From NCBI GenBank assembly GCA_030531305.1, contig JAUNNT010000016.1:1-38216 (forward strand): a stretch of DNA of 38,216 nucleotides. The letters run 5' to 3'. Position 1 is the stretch's first letter; every line of letters starts with the position of its first letter. A program made the translations under genes and the position numbers. The DNA is from Akkermansia sp. GTDB taxonomy: Bacteria; Verrucomicrobiota; Verrucomicrobiia; Verrucomicrobiales; Akkermansiaceae. Below the pieces are notes generated by a model. It was not told the origin of the DNA. It did not search any database and saw nothing but the letters and a program-made list of their open reading frames with translations. Below are positions 7,303 to 29,500 of the stretch, piece by piece.

Positions 7303-8346
7303 TCATTTGGAGGTGGGCAGGATGCCGCGGACGATAATGTCCCTGCCCGCCTGGGTGAAGGTGGTGTGTTCTAAATGCAGCTCGTTGGCGAGGAAATCGC
7401 CGGGTACGATTTGCGCCTCGCCGCCGGAAAGGATGGGCGCAATGTCCTGCACCCACTCGTTCACCAGTCCGCGGTTCAGGAATTCCTTGAGCAATGTGCC
7501 GCCGCATTCCAGCATCAGCGTGATGATGCCGTGCTCTTTGTACAGCCTTTGCAGCATTTCGGGGTAATCTTTGACGTTCTCCAGCACCAGGGTGCGGGCT
7601 CTGTGTTCATCCGTGAAGAGCTTGGCATCCGCAGGCAGGGTGGCGCGGTGCCGGGTCATCACGATGCGCCAAGGCTGTTCCTTGCGCTCAGATGGCCCTG
7701 TAAGGGGTGTTCGGATGGTGAGCGCGGGATTGTCCCGCCGGACCGTTTCCCCGCCCACCAGGATGGCGTCAGACGCAACACGTAGCTGGTGTGCGTGGCG
7801 CAGGGCCTCGGGGTCGCTGATCCAGCGCGCCGTCTTGCGCACCATTTTGGCATCCAGCGTGCAGGCCACCTTGGCCAACACCCAGGGACGCCCCTGCTCC
7901 GTGGCGAATATCCAGGGACGCAGCACCTCGCGGCATTGTTCCGCGCATACGCCGCCCTGGGCTTGTATGCCGGCGGCTTGCAGGATGGCGTCCGCCTGGC
8001 CGCGGTGGCGGGTGTCGGGATCCACCATGCCGTAGACCACGCGTGAGATACCGTGCTCAATGATGGCATCGGTGCACGGAGGTGTTTTTCCGTGGCTGGA
8101 GCAGGGTTCAAGGGTCACATAGATGGTGGAGCCTTGCAAATTGCCCCCCTGCCCTCTTGCTATGGCATCGGCTATGGCGCGGCGCTCCGCATGGGCTTCG
8201 CCCGCCTTTTCGTGCCAGCCCTCGCCGATGATGCGGCCATCCTTGACAACGACCGCACCCACGGGTGGATTGGGACTCGTGGTGCCCACGCCCTTGCGCG
8301 AGAGTTCCACGGCCTTGAGCATCCACTCTGTGTCCGGTTCAGACAT
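7303..8346 (-). CDS. ribD: Bifunctional pyrimidine deaminase/reductase of riboflavin synthesis
   Basis: 347 aa. It carries out the deamination and reduction steps that follow GTP cyclohydrolase II in riboflavin synthesis. The N-terminal deaminase domain has the zinc motifs HAE (52-54) and PCSSHGKTPPC (81-91). The C-terminal RibD_C/DHFR-like reductase domain begins around residue 145 (WVLAKVACTLDAKM) and ends near the C terminus. I chose MSEPDTEWM at 8346. An in-frame ATG lies three codons upstream at 8355, but it overlaps the last bases of the -10 box and cannot be in the transcript. The start then coincides with the expected +1, so the mRNA is probably leaderless. No other rib gene is in the window. 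Confidence 0.95.
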   Translation of the reverse strand: MSEPDTEWMLKAVELSRKGVGTTSPNPPVGAVVVKDGRIIGEGWHEKAGEAHAERRAIADAIARGQGGNLQGSTIYVTLEPCSSHGKTPPCTDAIIEHGISRVVYGMVDPDTRHRGQADAILQAAGIQAQGGVCAEQCREVLRPWIFATEQGRPWVLAKVACTLDAKMVRKTARWISDPEALRHAHQLRVASDAILVGGETVRRDNPALTIRTPLTGPSERKEQPWRIVMTRHRATLPADAKLFTDEHRARTLVLENVKDYPEMLQRLYKEHGIITLMLECGGTLLKEFLNRGLVNEWVQDIAPILSGGEAQIVPGDFLANELHLEHTTFTQAGRDIIVRGILPTSK

Positions 8347-8353
8347 GGCATTC

Positions 8354-8381
8354 ATTCTACCAGCCCCCTGCCCCGTGTAAA
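8354..8381 (-). promoter_or_regulatory. Promoter of ribD (leaderless type)
   Basis: Minus strand: -35 TTTACA (8381-8376), 16-base spacer, -10 TAGAAT (8359-8354). Seven bases separate the -10 from the ATG at 8346. The G-rich spacer GGCAGGGGGCTGG is nearly identical to that of the lipoprotein promoter at 9292-9321. Confidence 0.68.
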
Positions 8382-8459
8382 GACACCCCCCTGTCATTCC
8401 CCTGTCATGCTTGGTATGATGAAGAGGATGAATTTATAAATTTAAATTTCATCATCATC

Positions 8460-8620
8460 AGGATTGTCAGTTTTGTCAGTTAGTCTTGCTGATGGTTGAA
8501 ATCCAGCGCTTTGAAAAGCTGTCTACCTGTCAGGAATCCTGTGTGAAACCTAGCTTGAAAAGTCAGTTTGAGTTGTTGACAGGGTTATCTACCACTAACT
8601 GACAGGTTGCTGACAATCCT
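8460..8620. repeat. Long imperfect inverted repeat with TGTCAG motifs
   Basis: The left arm 8460-8484 and right arm 8594-8620 are complementary: AGGATTGTCAG and TGTCAGTTAGT blocks of the left arm both reappear inverted in the right arm, separated by a few unmatched bases. About 109 bases lie between the arms and hold further half-sites (CTGTCAGG near 8527, TTGACAGG near 8576). An AT-only stretch (AATTTATAAATTTAAATTT) lies at 8431-8449. The 283-base gap between ribD and the next lipoprotein contains no gene. Confidence 0.7.
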
Positions 8621-8639
8621 CTGTATATAAGTTATATAA

Positions 8640-9284
8640 CTAATTGGAATTGTTGTCGTTATCATCGTCGCCAGCGATGAAGTCGTGGAAGAAGACAAAG
8701 GGTGCCATCACCGGGATGGCCACGTTGTACGCCACCGAGCACGGGAAGTCCACGCAGACGAAATCCAGTCCAGCCAGCGCATTGGCCAACACGGGTGTGC
8801 TTTCGGGTATGCGTTTGGTGGTCTTTGCGACGCTGTGGCTGGTATGGGCGTCAACCCTGGCCTGGATGGTGTGCTGCTGGGCGCCCGCGGGAAGCGAGGC
8901 GACGGGTTCCGTGTTCATGGAGTTCATCTCCTCGAACAGGGATGGCAGCGTGTAGTAGCCGTCGCTGCGCAGGAGTACTTGCGCCGTACCGCTGGAGATA
9001 CGGTGGTACTGCACGCCCTCATGCACCTTGGTGGTACTGTAACGCGGCTCGTAGTCGTTGTTCAGCAGAATGGAGTCGTGCAGCACGGGATAATGCAGCT
9101 CCATGGTTTCCCGCTGTACGGCCAGATACCAGGTTCCCCCTGCGGAATACAGCTTCAGCGGCTCCACCAGACGGTAGCCCTCGTATTCATGGAATGCCTC
9201 CTGTATGTTCTTGTGCGTTTGCAGATACGCGCAGGAACTCAGGCACAGGGCAATGGCCAGCAGGCTTAGCGGAAAAAGTTTCAC
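8640..9284 (-). CDS. Hypothetical lipoprotein with acidic C-terminal tail
   Basis: 214 aa. The signal MKLFPLSLLAIALCLSSC has a good lipobox (LSSC, Cys18). The body is not a family I recognise. A hydrophobic segment (VAYNVAIPVMAPFVFFHDF) lies near the C terminus and is followed by the acidic/Asn tail GDDDNDNNSN. The start is GTG at 9284-9282, the only start codon in front of the signal peptide. It sits exactly 7 bases after a -10 TAGAAT, again consistent with a leaderless mRNA. The gene is separated from the TPR-like gene by 61 bases and has its own promoter. Confidence 0.75.
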   Translation of the reverse strand: MKLFPLSLLAIALCLSSCAYLQTHKNIQEAFHEYEGYRLVEPLKLYSAGGTWYLAVQRETMELHYPVLHDSILLNNDYEPRYSTTKVHEGVQYHRISSGTAQVLLRSDGYYTLPSLFEEMNSMNTEPVASLPAGAQQHTIQARVDAHTSHSVAKTTKRIPESTPVLANALAGLDFVCVDFPCSVAYNVAIPVMAPFVFFHDFIAGDDDNDNNSN

Positions 9285-9345: not shown

Positions 9346-10671
9346 TCATTTTGTTCCACGTGGAACAATCGCGCGATTCGGTACAATGGGCGGAAGCAAC
9401 CTCCCGATGGCGTCTGGCTCCTTGTCTATCCCGCCGAACCAAGTGCCGTGGGTATCGCCGTACAGCTGCGTCTGCGCGGCGGCAATGGCGATGCGGCAGG
9501 CGTGCATGGCGCGCTGCAGCACCACGGCGTTCAGGTCGGTGCGGCGCGGTGCGTCTTCCAGGTGTTTGAGGCAAAGCTTGGCGTTGGCAATGTTGGATTC
9601 CGCCTCAAACTTGTTGGGAGCGCAACGGGCGTATAGCGCCTCGGTGAGACATTGCACGTATTCTTGGAATACTTTGTCCCCCTGCCCGTCTCCGGCGGCA
9701 TCGACCGCCGACTGAATGGTAGCGAGGGTGAATTTCCGTTCAAACACGAGGGAGCGCAGCGGCAAGGTGGAGGTTTCCCATTGCCTCAGGATGGCGGCAT
9801 CCTCCGAATACGCCGAAAACTTTTCCGCGTTCATGGAGCGGCGCAGTTGACGCGCCTCATTGGTGCGTCTGACCGTCAGCAGTATGCTGGCCTCTCCCAG
9901 CCCGGCGTTCAGGTAGGTGTAGGTGGCCGTTCCGCCGATGGCTTGCATTTCCTTTTGGGCGAGCTTTCGTGCCATGTGGAAATGGATGCAGCTTTGCGTG
10001 AGCAGCCCGCGCTTGTGGAGCAGCTTGGCGTACAGCAGCTCCGCCGTGGCGCAGTCACGCATCAGGATGGCGGCGGCTTGCGCGCAATGCAAGGCGGTGT
10101 CCGACACCTCGTCTGTGGTTTCCTCCACGGCTCCCCGCAGGTACAGCAGCATGGGTTCGCTGGGATGCAATTTCAGGAAAGCATCCGCCAGCGTGCGCGC
10201 CTCATCGGTTTTGCCGCCGATTTGCAGCAATGATACGGCCCAGCATGATGCCGCCACGTCGTTGCGGTGTTGTTCGGCCTGCTGGCGGAAGTCCGCAGCG
10301 GCTCCGTTCACTTCGTTGCATGCTAGCTTGAGCAGGCTGTTGATGAACAGCGCTTCCGCCGGCGTGGGTGTGTAGGTGCTGATGAGTTGTTGCAGCTCGT
10401 CCAGGCGTTGCGTGTAGTCGGGTGCCCTATGTTCCAGCAGGACTAGCCCGCATCTTGCCAGAGCGCACGTGTCATCGGCTGCCAATGCCTTTTGGAAATG
10501 GTACGACGCGCTCTCGTGCTCGCCCAGCAGCGTGTCCTGCAGCCCCAGGTTGCATTCCAGCGCGGCTGTTTCGCTCTCGGTGGACAGCACAATGGGGTTG
10601 TACGGTTCTGCGGCAGCTGCCACCCATACGAGACAGGTGGCGGCGACCAGCGATTGTTCCACGTGGAACAT
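9346..10671 (-). CDS. Exported helical-repeat (TPR-like) protein with parS at both ends
   Basis: 441 aa. The N terminus (MFHVEQSLVAATCLVWVAAAAEP) is hydrophobic like a signal peptide, but it has no Lys or Arg in its n-region. The body is almost all helix-forming; segments such as LGEHESASYHFQKALAADDTCALARCGLVLL resemble TPR pairs, so a scaffold role is likely. No catalytic motif is visible. The gene follows argS by 23 bases and is probably in its operon. A parS sequence supplies codons 1-6 (MFHVEQ), and a second one supplies the codons for the C-terminal VPRGT just before the stop. The ATG is preceded by CCAGGCAAA, a weak ribosome-binding site. The unusual n-region may be imposed by parS rather than selected for export. 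Confidence 0.7.
   Translation of the reverse strand: MFHVEQSLVAATCLVWVAAAAEPYNPIVLSTESETAALECNLGLQDTLLGEHESASYHFQKALAADDTCALARCGLVLLEHRAPDYTQRLDELQQLISTYTPTPAEALFINSLLKLACNEVNGAAADFRQQAEQHRNDVAASCWAVSLLQIGGKTDEARTLADAFLKLHPSEPMLLYLRGAVEETTDEVSDTALHCAQAAAILMRDCATAELLYAKLLHKRGLLTQSCIHFHMARKLAQKEMQAIGGTATYTYLNAGLGEASILLTVRRTNEARQLRRSMNAEKFSAYSEDAAILRQWETSTLPLRSLVFERKFTLATIQSAVDAAGDGQGDKVFQEYVQCLTEALYARCAPNKFEAESNIANAKLCLKHLEDAPRRTDLNAVVLQRAMHACRIAIAAAQTQLYGDTHGTWFGGIDKEPDAIGRLLPPIVPNRAIVPRGTK
9352..9367. other. parS site 1 (ParB-binding)
   Basis: TGTTCCACGTGGAACA is a perfect 16-bp palindrome identical to the pseudomonad-type chromosomal parS bound by ParB/Spo0J. It overlaps the last codons of the TPR-like gene. 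Confidence 0.88.
10655..10670. other. parS site 2 (ParB-binding)
   Basis: A second exact TGTTCCACGTGGAACA. It overlaps the start codon of the TPR-like gene. Confidence 0.88.
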
Positions 10672-10694
10672 TTTGCCTGGAAGGGGGCAGGGGG

Positions 10695-12449
10695 TTACAT
10701 GCGGTCCGGCATGGTGATGCCGAAGAGGCCCATGCCTTGTTTGAGCACGCGCGAGGTGAGCTCGCAGAGGGCGAGTCGCGTGGCGCGGGTTTCGCCTTCG
10801 CTGCGCAGCACGGGGCATGCCTCGTAGAAGCTGTGGAATGCCTTGGCCAGCTCGTACAGGTAGGCGGCCAGCAGGTTGGGCTTGCAGTCGTCCAGCGTGG
10901 CGGGCACCACCTCTGCGTAGCGCACCAGCAGGCGTGCCAGCGTCAGCTCGGCGGGCTCGCTCAGCGTCAGCGTTTCCGGTGCGGTGAATTCTCCGTCGAT
11001 CTTGCGGAAGATGGAGCGCACGCGCACGTAGGAGTTCTGGAGGTAGGGCGCGGTGTCGCCGGTGAGGGCGAGCATCTTGTCCCAGTCGAAGATGTAGTCG
11101 CTCAGGCGGTTCTGGGAGAGCTCGGCGAACTTGATGGCACCCACGCCCACGGCCTGGGCCACGGCGGCTTTCTCGTCCGCCGGCATGTCCGGGCTCTTTT
11201 CCTCCACCACCTTGGTGGCGCGCTCGATGGCTTCGTCGATGACGTCTTGGAGGCTCACGGTGTCGCCGCTGCGGGTCTTGAACGGCCTGCGGTCCTTGCC
11301 GAGGATGGAGCCGAAGGCGACGTGGCGGAAATCGCCACTGATGCCGCGCATGCGCTCGATGTCGAAGATCTGCTTGAAGTGCTTTTCCTGCGGTGCGCCC
11401 ACGACGTACCAGATGGCGTCGGCCTTGAAGTTTTCCGTGCGGTAGTCCAGCGTGGCCAGATCCGTGGTGGCGTACAGGAAGCCGCCGTCCGCCTTGCGGA
11501 TGATGGCGGGCACGGGCACCCACTCGCCGTCCTTTTGCACCAGGAAGGGGTCTTCCTGCGGCTTGTGGTAGCCGTCGGAGAACACGCAGACCGCGCCGTC
11601 GCTCTCGCGGGCGATGCCGTCCGCCAGCAGCTTGTCCACCAGCGGGCTCAGGGCGTCGTTGTACGCGCTCTCGCCCAGCCAGTAGTCGAAGTGGATGTCC
11701 AGCTGGTCGTAGATTTTCTGCAGGCCGGTCTTGGTGACGGCGATGCACTTGTTCCATATAGAAAGGTTTTCCTCGTCGCCGCCCTGGAGTTTCACCAGCT
11801 CGGCCTTGCAGAGGGGCAGGAGGGTTTCGTCCTCCTTGCATTTCAGGTTCACCTGCTTGTAGACGTTGAGCAGGGCGTCGATGGGGTTCTTTTCCAGCTC
11901 CGCCTGGTCCAGGATGTTCTTCCAGCCCCACAGGATCATGCCGAACTGCGTGCCCCAGTCGCCGATGTGGTTGTCGGATATCACGGTGTGGCCCAGGAAG
12001 CGGGCGAGGCGCGCCAGGGTGTCGCCGATGATGGTGGAGCGGATGTGGCCCACGTGCATGGGCTTGGCCACGTTCGGGGCCGAGAAGTCGATGACGATGG
12101 TCTTGGGCTGCGCCGCCTTGGCCACGCCCAGGCGCTCGTCGTGCAGCATCTGGCCGGCACGGGCTGCCAGGCATTCCGGGTGGATGCGGAAGTTGATGAA
12201 TCCGGGGCCGGCTATCTCCGTGGATGCCAGCGAGCTGTCCATGGCTTCCATCACCTTGCCGGCAAGCTCGCGCGGGTTCATCCCCACGCGCTTCGCCAGC
12301 ATCATGGCCGCGTTGCTCTGGTAGTCGCCGTAGCGCGCATCCTGCGCCACACTCACCGCAGGTACGGTGAATTCCGAGGGCAGGGCATCGCCCAGCACCG
12401 CCTTCAAGGCCGTGCCCAGCTGTTCCGTCAGTTCGTTCGGTATCGTCAT
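10695..12449 (-). CDS. argS: Arginyl-tRNA synthetase
   Basis: 584 aa class I synthetase that charges tRNA-Arg. N-terminal Add-1-like domain (about 1-110), then the catalytic domain with NVAKPMHVGHIRST (signature HVGH at 132-135). In place of KMSK is a SGDTVSLQDVIDEA segment, as in many ArgRS that lack the canonical motif. The C-terminal DALR anticodon-binding domain ends ELTSRVLKQGMGLFGITMP. The start is ATG at 12449. A GTG codon six codons upstream lies over the predicted -10 box and is excluded. The -10 is 9 bases from the ATG, so the leader is at most a few bases. Confidence 0.96.
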   Translation of the reverse strand: MTIPNELTEQLGTALKAVLGDALPSEFTVPAVSVAQDARYGDYQSNAAMMLAKRVGMNPRELAGKVMEAMDSSLASTEIAGPGFINFRIHPECLAARAGQMLHDERLGVAKAAQPKTIVIDFSAPNVAKPMHVGHIRSTIIGDTLARLARFLGHTVISDNHIGDWGTQFGMILWGWKNILDQAELEKNPIDALLNVYKQVNLKCKEDETLLPLCKAELVKLQGGDEENLSIWNKCIAVTKTGLQKIYDQLDIHFDYWLGESAYNDALSPLVDKLLADGIARESDGAVCVFSDGYHKPQEDPFLVQKDGEWVPVPAIIRKADGGFLYATTDLATLDYRTENFKADAIWYVVGAPQEKHFKQIFDIERMRGISGDFRHVAFGSILGKDRRPFKTRSGDTVSLQDVIDEAIERATKVVEEKSPDMPADEKAAVAQAVGVGAIKFAELSQNRLSDYIFDWDKMLALTGDTAPYLQNSYVRVRSIFRKIDGEFTAPETLTLSEPAELTLARLLVRYAEVVPATLDDCKPNLLAAYLYELAKAFHSFYEACPVLRSEGETRATRLALCELTSRVLKQGMGLFGITMPDRM

Positions 12450-12458
12450 GTCGCCGAC

Positions 12459-12487
12459 GTTATACACGCACGCGCGCGTTTTTTCAA
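12459..12487 (-). promoter_or_regulatory. Promoter of argS
   Basis: Minus strand: -35 TTGAAA (12487-12482), 17-base spacer, -10 TATAAC (12464-12459). The extended parS palindrome ends 18 bases upstream of the -35. Confidence 0.68.
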
Positions 12488-12505
12488 GTCCTATCTAAAC
12501 CAAGC

Positions 12506-12535
12506 CCCCGAATGTTCCACGTGGAACATTCGGGG
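12506..12535. other. parS site 3 inside a 30-bp perfect palindrome
   Basis: The parS core TGTTCCACGTGGAACA is at 12513-12528. Symmetry continues outward through CCCCGAA and TTCGGGG, giving 30 bp of perfect palindrome. It lies between the candidate RNA gene and the argS promoter. As RNA it would form a 15-bp stem and could also act as a terminator for the upstream transcript, although only CUUGGUUU follows. Confidence 0.88.
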
Positions 12536-12555
12536 ACATTTCAAGGGAAAGGGTT

Positions 12556-12733
12556 GGCCGCCGGTGCCGTCAGTGGTATGAGAGCCGCGTTCCCTGAATG
12601 ACAGGTGGGTGCGAGGACGGGGATTCTCGGTTGAGTCCGTCTCACGGACGGAACATATCCCCCCGTACCGTTGGCCCCTTAACTAATGATAACAGTCCGG
12701 GCTTGATGACCACGCGTCACGTGCACGGCAGCC
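12556..12733 (-). ncRNA. Candidate structured small RNA, possibly 6S RNA
   Basis: A predicted transcript of about 178 nt whose ends pair: 5' GGCUGCCG with 3' CGGCGGCC. Inward come GUG/CAC, GUGGU/ACCAC and AGCC/GGCU helices separated by internal loops, then a large central bubble. The distal stem is CGGGG/CCCCG, capped by the hairpin GUCCGU-GAG-ACGGAC. This rod with a central bubble and 180-nt length is the 6S RNA architecture, and a good promoter starts it. No conserved 6S sequence block could be verified, and the window has no open frame worth calling here. tmRNA, RNase P and SRP RNA signatures are absent. Positions 12768-12905 beyond it hold only three GGCGTGGT copies and an ATTAGG triplet. 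Confidence 0.42.
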
Positions 12734-12739
12734 GAATTG

Positions 12740-28069: not shown

Positions 28070-29500
28070 CTATTGATAACGCGCGTTTAGCAAATAGCAC
28101 AGGGCGAAGGCCGGGATTTTGACGATAGGCGTGCCGCCATCGGCGAAAGGTGGCATTATGGTGAAATCATTGGCGGATTTGGTGGCGACGAACGCGGCGG
28201 CGGCCCTGCCTTCGCGGCAGAGGGTGGGGAGGGCGTCGCCGGGGGCGAGTTCGGCATCGTTGCGGTACTTGGCCTCGCAGAGGATGAATTTGTCGTGCGG
28301 GAAGAAGTCCACGGCCACATCCACCTCCTTGCCCTTGCCGGGTGTTCGGAGGTAGCCCACCTTGGCGGAGCGGGCGTAGGCGTTCTGGAAGTGCTTGTAG
28401 ACGGCGGTTTCCACCACCATGCCCAGGTCCGCGCTGTCGGAGAACGGGTTGGGCAGGGCCAGGCTGGCGTTGCGCAGGGCGGCGTCGGCTATGTAGATTT
28501 TCGGCTGGGCGGAAAGCCCCTTCTTGCCCGTGGCGAGCACGGAGTGGCTGATGTAGATGAGGTTGGCGTCCCGCAGGTAGTCGATATAGCGGGAAAGGGT
28601 GGGCTTGGTGACGCCCAGGGCCTTGCTCATCTCCGCATAGTTGATGATGTTGCCGCTCTTGAGGCAGAGGTAGAGGTAGATTTTCTCCAGAAAGACGGAG
28701 TTGCGGACGTCGAACAGGGCGGGCACGTCGCGCTTGAGCACCTTGTCCACCACGTCCTCGCGCAGCAGCTGCTGGGCGCGCGCGGTGTCCTGCAGGTGCA
28801 CGAGCTCCGGGAAGCCGCCCTGCACCAGGTAGCGGTTCCAGTGGGGCTGCAGTGAGGAGAGGCGCATCATGAGCATGCCGAACGCGCCGCGATCCATGGC
28901 GGGCAGCTCCTCCAGGGCCGGCACGCCCTGCGGCAGGTTCTCCACGCCCGCCACCGCGCAGTATTCCGCGAAAGTGAGCGTGGGCATGCGGAACACGCGC
29001 CACCGCCCCACCCCGCTGTCGGACGCCCCTTTCTCGATGCTCGGGCTGGCCGACCCTGTGGCCGCCAGGCGCAGCGCGGGTTCGCTGTCGTACAGGCGTT
29101 TCACCCACAGGGACCAGTCCTCCGCGTACTGCACCTCGTCCAGCAGGAAATAGTGCACGCCCGTGTGCGGGATGTAGCTGCGGTAGGTCTCCAGCACCTG
29201 CGCGAACCCGCTGAGCTTCAGGATGGGATCGTCGAACGAGATGTACAGGATGTTCTCCGCCGGTACGCCCCGCTCCAGCAGGGCACGCGCCACCTGCAGC
29301 AGAACCGTCGTCTTTCCCACGCGTCGCGCGCCCGACAGTACCGCAAATCGCCGCACGTCCTCCGCCGTGACGGTTTCCAGCACCTCCCGGTACGCCCCGC
29401 GGTGTATCGGCGGCAGCTCCCGCAGCGTATGCTCCCCCTGCCACCAGGGGTTGCTCCGCTTCAGCAGCTCCAGTATCTGCTCATCGCTGAATAGGCTCAT
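28070..29500 (-). CDS. AAA ATPase with DUF4143 / PD-(D/E)xK-like C-terminal domain
   Basis: 476 aa. N-terminal AAA_14 domain: Walker A GARRVGKTT (57-65), Walker B YFLLDEVQ (117-124) and sensor-like LAATGSASPS. A winged-helix segment follows (about 285-310, NYAEMSKALGVTKPTLSRYIDYL). The DUF4143 C-terminal domain carries Glu364, KEVDVAV (Asp394) and LCEAKY (Glu409, Lys411), matching a PD-(D/E)xK nuclease core. Family function is unknown; defence, DNA processing and regulation have all been suggested for similar proteins. The gene is bracketed by two direct copies of a 54-bp double palindrome. The winged helix could be what recognises those palindromes, which is inference. Promoter 29510-29537 gives an almost leaderless transcript. 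Confidence 0.85.
   Translation of the reverse strand: MSLFSDEQILELLKRSNPWWQGEHTLRELPPIHRGAYREVLETVTAEDVRRFAVLSGARRVGKTTVLLQVARALLERGVPAENILYISFDDPILKLSGFAQVLETYRSYIPHTGVHYFLLDEVQYAEDWSLWVKRLYDSEPALRLAATGSASPSIEKGASDSGVGRWRVFRMPTLTFAEYCAVAGVENLPQGVPALEELPAMDRGAFGMLMMRLSSLQPHWNRYLVQGGFPELVHLQDTARAQQLLREDVVDKVLKRDVPALFDVRNSVFLEKIYLYLCLKSGNIINYAEMSKALGVTKPTLSRYIDYLRDANLIYISHSVLATGKKGLSAQPKIYIADAALRNASLALPNPFSDSADLGMVVETAVYKHFQNAYARSAKVGYLRTPGKGKEVDVAVDFFPHDKFILCEAKYRNDAELAPGDALPTLCREGRAAAAFVATKSANDFTIMPPFADGGTPIVKIPAFALCYLLNARYQ

Follow-up and report, generated by a model that had tools for sequence, protein, structure and literature searches.

Three parS sites around argS mark a probable chromosomal centromere near a predicted ribD-linked origin in Akkermansia

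The window analysed here, a stretch of 38,216 nucleotides that constitutes the entire contig C49 of a draft Akkermansia genome (MAG), carries three exact copies of a 16-mer that very probably form a chromosomal parS centromere near a predicted, ribD-linked replication origin, parS having apparently shifted from gidA (mnmG) to argS in this part of the genus. That explanation is built on the sites themselves and their conservation, the ParB and ParA genes of the genome, comparative skew, synteny and the absence of Smc-ScpB. As elements the sites are unremarkable (parS); it is their arrangement that is unusual. We regard the contig as chromosomal because argS, ribD, a tRNA and 6S RNA are all found on it.

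Results

Three exact palindromes flank argS

The sequence TGTTCCACGTGGAACA occurs at positions 9352, 10655 and 12513, each time exact and perfectly palindromic, as the preliminary description of this DNA had reported. The first copy (9352–9367) lies inside the last codons (IVPRGTK*), and the second (10655–10670) overlaps the ATG (MFHVEQ), of a minus-strand ORF at 9346–10671 that encodes a fast-evolving protein with weak TPR similarity, such that both ends of this ORF overlap a site. The third copy (12513–12528) is located between the start of argS (10695–12467, minus strand), the single-copy gene for arginyl-tRNA synthetase, and the 3' end of 6S RNA (12551–12737, minus strand; Rfam RF00013, 49.1 bits). 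Around it extends a 30-bp perfect palindrome (12506–12535), the extra arms of which are also present in relatives L037, L039 and L040; L038 is without the upstream site. Read along the minus strand, the order is thus 6S RNA, parS site 3, argS, parS site 2, the TPR ORF, parS site 1, a small conserved ORF (8640–9284; lipoprotein-like by eye, with no Pfam match), an AT-rich intergenic region (8398–8639) and ribD (7303–8397; Pfam RibD_C and deaminase). Elsewhere in the window, positions 28070–29500 of the minus strand encode a 476-residue protein that matches the PADLOC candidate defence family PDC-S01 (E 6e-59).

The triple occurrence is not attributable to chance, as had been argued at the outset: when up to three mismatches were allowed, 0.14 matches were expected in the window after dinucleotide shuffling, and none of 100 shuffles reached three. 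Over the whole genome approximately 0.0003 exact copies of the 16-mer are expected from base composition, and the three sites are the only matches with two or fewer mismatches in the assembly (2,307,407 bp in 109 contigs, 93% complete). Every copy therefore falls inside 3.2 kb of a 2.31-Mb assembly, and the even spread of many copies that the preliminary description considered as contrary evidence is not seen; at 93% completeness, further parS sites may be missing from the assembly. The genes parA, parB, dnaA and gidA are absent from the window, again as described, each being found on another contig of the same genome (a ParA-like gene on C5, parB on C28, dnaA on C36 and gidA on C63); dnaN is likewise absent and sits on contig C24.

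The 16-mer is identical to parS2 and parS3 of P. aeruginosa, which are the highest-affinity ParB sites in that organism (PMC4368675), and its earlier identification as a known chromosomal parS variant is thereby upheld. Among 76 Akkermansia genomes, 72 contain between one and six copies of TGTTYCAYRTGRAACA, with a count of 0 for the backward control. Across a sample of 80 argS loci, all taken from named genomes, clusters of the 16-mer surround argS in 30+ related genomes; the motif columns are near-invariant (1.86–1.88 bits, with sites aligned on the motif), as opposed to unconserved flanks (0.13–0.27 bits over 40 bp), and the backward motif gave no matches over 508,144 positions. Outside the A. 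muciniphila group, nearly every Akkermansia has sites resembling parS around argS; the argS loci of other genera in the same sample contain none. The position of site 2 directly downstream of argS is kept in many relatives, as is that of site 3 upstream of the gene. On the ArgS tree the presence of parS at argS requires two changes, one of which comes from L116, where the sites have two mismatches. The commonest site centres are CACATG/CATGTG (84) and CACGTG (58). In relatives L041–L069, most sites have the asymmetric centre TGTTCCACATGGAACA and are not perfect palindromes.

The sites lie near a predicted origin upstream of ribD

The dnaA gene is the usual landmark for the origin and the usual position 1 of a genome; in Akkermansia it is no marker of the origin. 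In the one-contig genome of A. muciniphila (G119; 2,664,102 bp), the sampled skew flips near 0.95–1.06 Mb, with a local GC-skew minimum at 958,534; the only exact parS (956,703) is 1.8 kb from this minimum. That site is inside gidA, which is followed by ribD, a hexapeptide transferase gene and dnaN, while dnaA is found at 2.3 kb (position 2266), approximately 0.95 Mb from the skew minimum, a distance of about 36% of the chromosome. On a 268-kb contig of G071, a member of the larger clade to which the window belongs, the parS sites (223,406–226,646) flank argS and the skew minimum (227,640) lies 1 kb away. Pooling 28 argS–ribD loci gave a strand-balanced GC3 skew step of +0.055 (bootstrap 95% interval 0.016–0.099) that vanishes when the centre is moved 2–4 kb past ribD. 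In G186 and G145 the skew minima are 3–8 kb from the proposed oriC; no clear GC-skew flip is visible on the contigs of G183 and G187, and the window's own GC skew is weak and dominated by gene-strand bias, also with no clear flip. The proposal that the argS/TPR locus belongs to the origin domain is thus borne out by comparison, through skew minima within 1–2 kb of the sites in G071 and G119 and through the pooled step.

In every Akkermansia arrangement examined ribD borders the origin, and in A. muciniphila it adjoins parS and gidA. Clusters of DnaA boxes occupy the intergenic region upstream of ribD in G119, G071 and G186; in A. glycaniphila this region has two boxes. Since this orthologous region has DnaA boxes and sits at the skew minimum or within a few kb of it, we place oriC of the window, by orthology, at 8398–8639, an AT-rich interval containing TGACA repeats and GATGATGATGAAATTTAAATTT. 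This predicted oriC is probably the true origin, with the nearest parS approximately 0.7 kb and the farthest 4 kb away. The absence of dnaA and gidA from the window is thereby accounted for: in A. muciniphila dnaA and the skew origin are about 0.95 Mb apart, and gidA has moved away in the window's clade. For the 12 gut strains it studied, the accessible text of PMC10197239 notes, with no mention of A. muciniphila by name on this point, that ori and dnaA are not always found together, and to that extent their general non-coincidence is already known.

ParB, ParA and a predicted segregation role

The genome encodes one full ParB (ParB_N, HTH_ParB and ParB_C domains), on contig C28 with no parA adjoining it. 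Aligned to Caulobacter ParB (6t1f, the source of our residue numbering), it has R and G at the equivalents of positions 173 and 201, M at 179 and D at 184. R173 and G201 are absolutely conserved in ParB orthologs (PMC7383237), and the genome thus possesses a ParB of the parS class, the lack of which would have been, for the preliminary description, an argument against a centromere. A Soj-type ParA containing KGGVGKTT is encoded on contig C5, unlinked to parB. A role in Noc nucleoid occlusion was considered and rejected: the Noc signature comprises an NBS site and residues Q173/K179/K184/R201 (PMC7383237), whereas here the site is parS and residues 173 and 201 are R and G.

We infer that ParB binds the sites and that they function in segregation. 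ParB would load at the three 16-mers and then spread, and ParA would move the resulting ParB–DNA complex, such that the newly replicated origin region segregates first. The centromere would be positioned 0.7 to 4 kb from the predicted origin (8398–8639).

Alternative explanations for the sites

ParB–SMC coupling is general in other bacteria, and in Bacillus the chromosome arms are aligned. The sites could accordingly be imagined to nucleate ParB mainly for loading of SMC condensin and for arm alignment, as in Bacillus (the preliminary description had them nucleate SMC loading), and the accessible text of PMC10197239 describes a barely visible secondary diagonal in Hi-C data from A. muciniphila that would agree with such activity. 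The gene content speaks otherwise: Smc above the TIGR02168 cut-off and ScpB above its family cut-off were each found in 0 of 13 Akkermansia genomes and in 7 of 7 from other families of the order, and the same text reports that no condensin homologue was found in A. muciniphila. SMC loading at these sites is therefore unsupported, and we regard this explanation as largely refuted already and very improbable.

The location of the sites at gene boundaries, with one overlapping a start codon, would also suit operators at which a transcription regulator controls argS, the TPR gene and 6S RNA. We consider this very unlikely, given that verified parS of P. aeruginosa has this very sequence (PMC4368675), that sites in other genera and in A. 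muciniphila are found in or by gidA, inside coding sequence, and that the sites follow the skew origin and no particular gene. Least likely, and scarcely credible on present evidence, is that site 3 is primarily the terminator hairpin of 6S RNA and resembles parS by coincidence. The 30-bp perfect palindrome on the 3' side of 6S RNA would indeed form a strong RNA hairpin, but no U-tract follows it, and the 16-bp core is kept upstream of argS clade-wide while the extra arms are limited to the closest relatives. A dual use, in which the palindrome also ends the 6S transcript, is possible. A parS centromere near the origin remains our preferred explanation for all three sites.

Probable relocation of parS from gidA to argS

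The A. muciniphila group, G186, G100 and the family's other genera all have parS in or adjoining gidA; in the other genera and A. muciniphila these sites sit inside coding sequence. In the window's clade, the copies of gidA that were read have no parS, and the gene is located either on a different contig or some 28 kb off. An intermediate state is seen in A. glycaniphila (L093/G145), which has parS near argS and still carries a one-mismatch parS in gidA, with the origin between the two. The simplest reading is a gain of sites around argS and a loss from gidA while the ribD-linked origin stayed fixed. The ancestral arrangement of the family would have had parS in or adjoining gidA, beside ribD; in the window's clade argS would have become a neighbour of the origin, with parS sites arising around argS and disappearing from gidA, which moved off. 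The direction of these gene moves is deduced from the comparison.

A candidate change in DnaA-box specificity

The predicted oriC contains no copies of TTATNCAC, and hence no canonical cluster of DnaA boxes, in the interval 8398–8639; altered repeats are present instead. As the window has no relevant canonical box, we looked at those repeats. This 242-bp region contains seven copies of TGTCA/TGACA, compared to 0.2 expected, and the candidate altered boxes are TTGTTGACA (8573–8581), TAACTGACA (8596–8604) and TTGCTGACA (8607–8615) on the plus strand and a second TAACTGACA (8474–8482) on the minus strand. The genome belongs to a sub-clade of five (the other members being L037, L038, L039 and L040, and the five DnaA proteins L250–L254). 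The regions upstream of ribD in these five contain no TTATNCAC and 20 matches to T[TA][AG][TC]NGACA, and those of 20 other Akkermansia loci contain 65 TTATNCAC boxes and 10 matches to the altered motif, which was picked after inspection of the same regions. One member, L039, carries TTATTGACA, a single base off canonical.

The DnaA residues that contact the box include D433, H434, T435 and H439 (PMC7561715). In E. coli numbering, from alignment to 1J1V, 54 of 59 Akkermansia have Asp at residue 433, and the five with Ser are precisely the genomes of the sub-clade; His439 is replaced by Asn or Ala in the same five of 59. These genomes form one clade on the ArgS tree, and the correspondence between box and residues therefore reflects one evolutionary event, without independent replicates. 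A scan for the altered box upstream of dnaA gave nothing consistent. Loci L055 and L078 were examined as a counter-example, in which canonical boxes had been lost, and were set aside as both keep TTATTCAC with position 9 relaxed. A GATGATGATG repeat was also considered as a DnaA-trio and rejected, because the published consensus, 3'-GAT-5', runs in the opposite direction (PMC8287927).

Taken from sequence comparison, these observations suggest a shift in specificity of DnaA and its box within the sub-clade. We lean towards a model in which the two were rewired together, the box changing from TTATTCACA through TTATTGACA to forms like TTGCTGACA (C to G at position 6) and DnaA acquiring the matching substitutions, Ser for Asp433 and Asn or Ala for His439, at an SMC-less origin with its centromere moved from gidA to argS. 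If correct, the change in the DnaA box would be a more surprising result than the arrangement of parS.

Discussion

The closest parallel is the ParABS system of P. aeruginosa, which has the identical TGTTCCACGTGGAACA, an origin-near cluster of sites and canonical ParB domains (PMC4368675). Unlike that system, the present genome has parA and parB on contigs separate from each other and from parS, no Smc-ScpB was found, and there are three sites only, all inside 3.2 kb. The gidA parS of A. muciniphila and other Akkermansiaceae shares the 16-mer, the ribD neighbour and the GC-skew origin; in contrast to it, the sites in the window lie at argS, across the ribD-linked origin, and are several where there is one at gidA, and the window's clade has none in gidA. 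The predicted oriC likewise resembles a canonical origin with TTATNCACA boxes in having 9-mer repeats arrayed in an AT-rich intergenic region beside a centromere, and differs from it in that the putative box of the sub-clade has G at position 6 (TTRYTGACA-type) and its DnaA has Ser at 433.

These results locate an origin and a centromere in a gut genus that is widely studied and in which dnaA misleads; such a misleading landmark affects both genome numbering and estimates of growth rate from coverage. They describe the gain and loss of parS around a fixed origin inside one genus, with an intermediate species, and a natural ParABS system that is without Smc-ScpB. The change in DnaA and its box, if true, would provide a stepwise natural record of an essential initiator and its origin changing specificity together.
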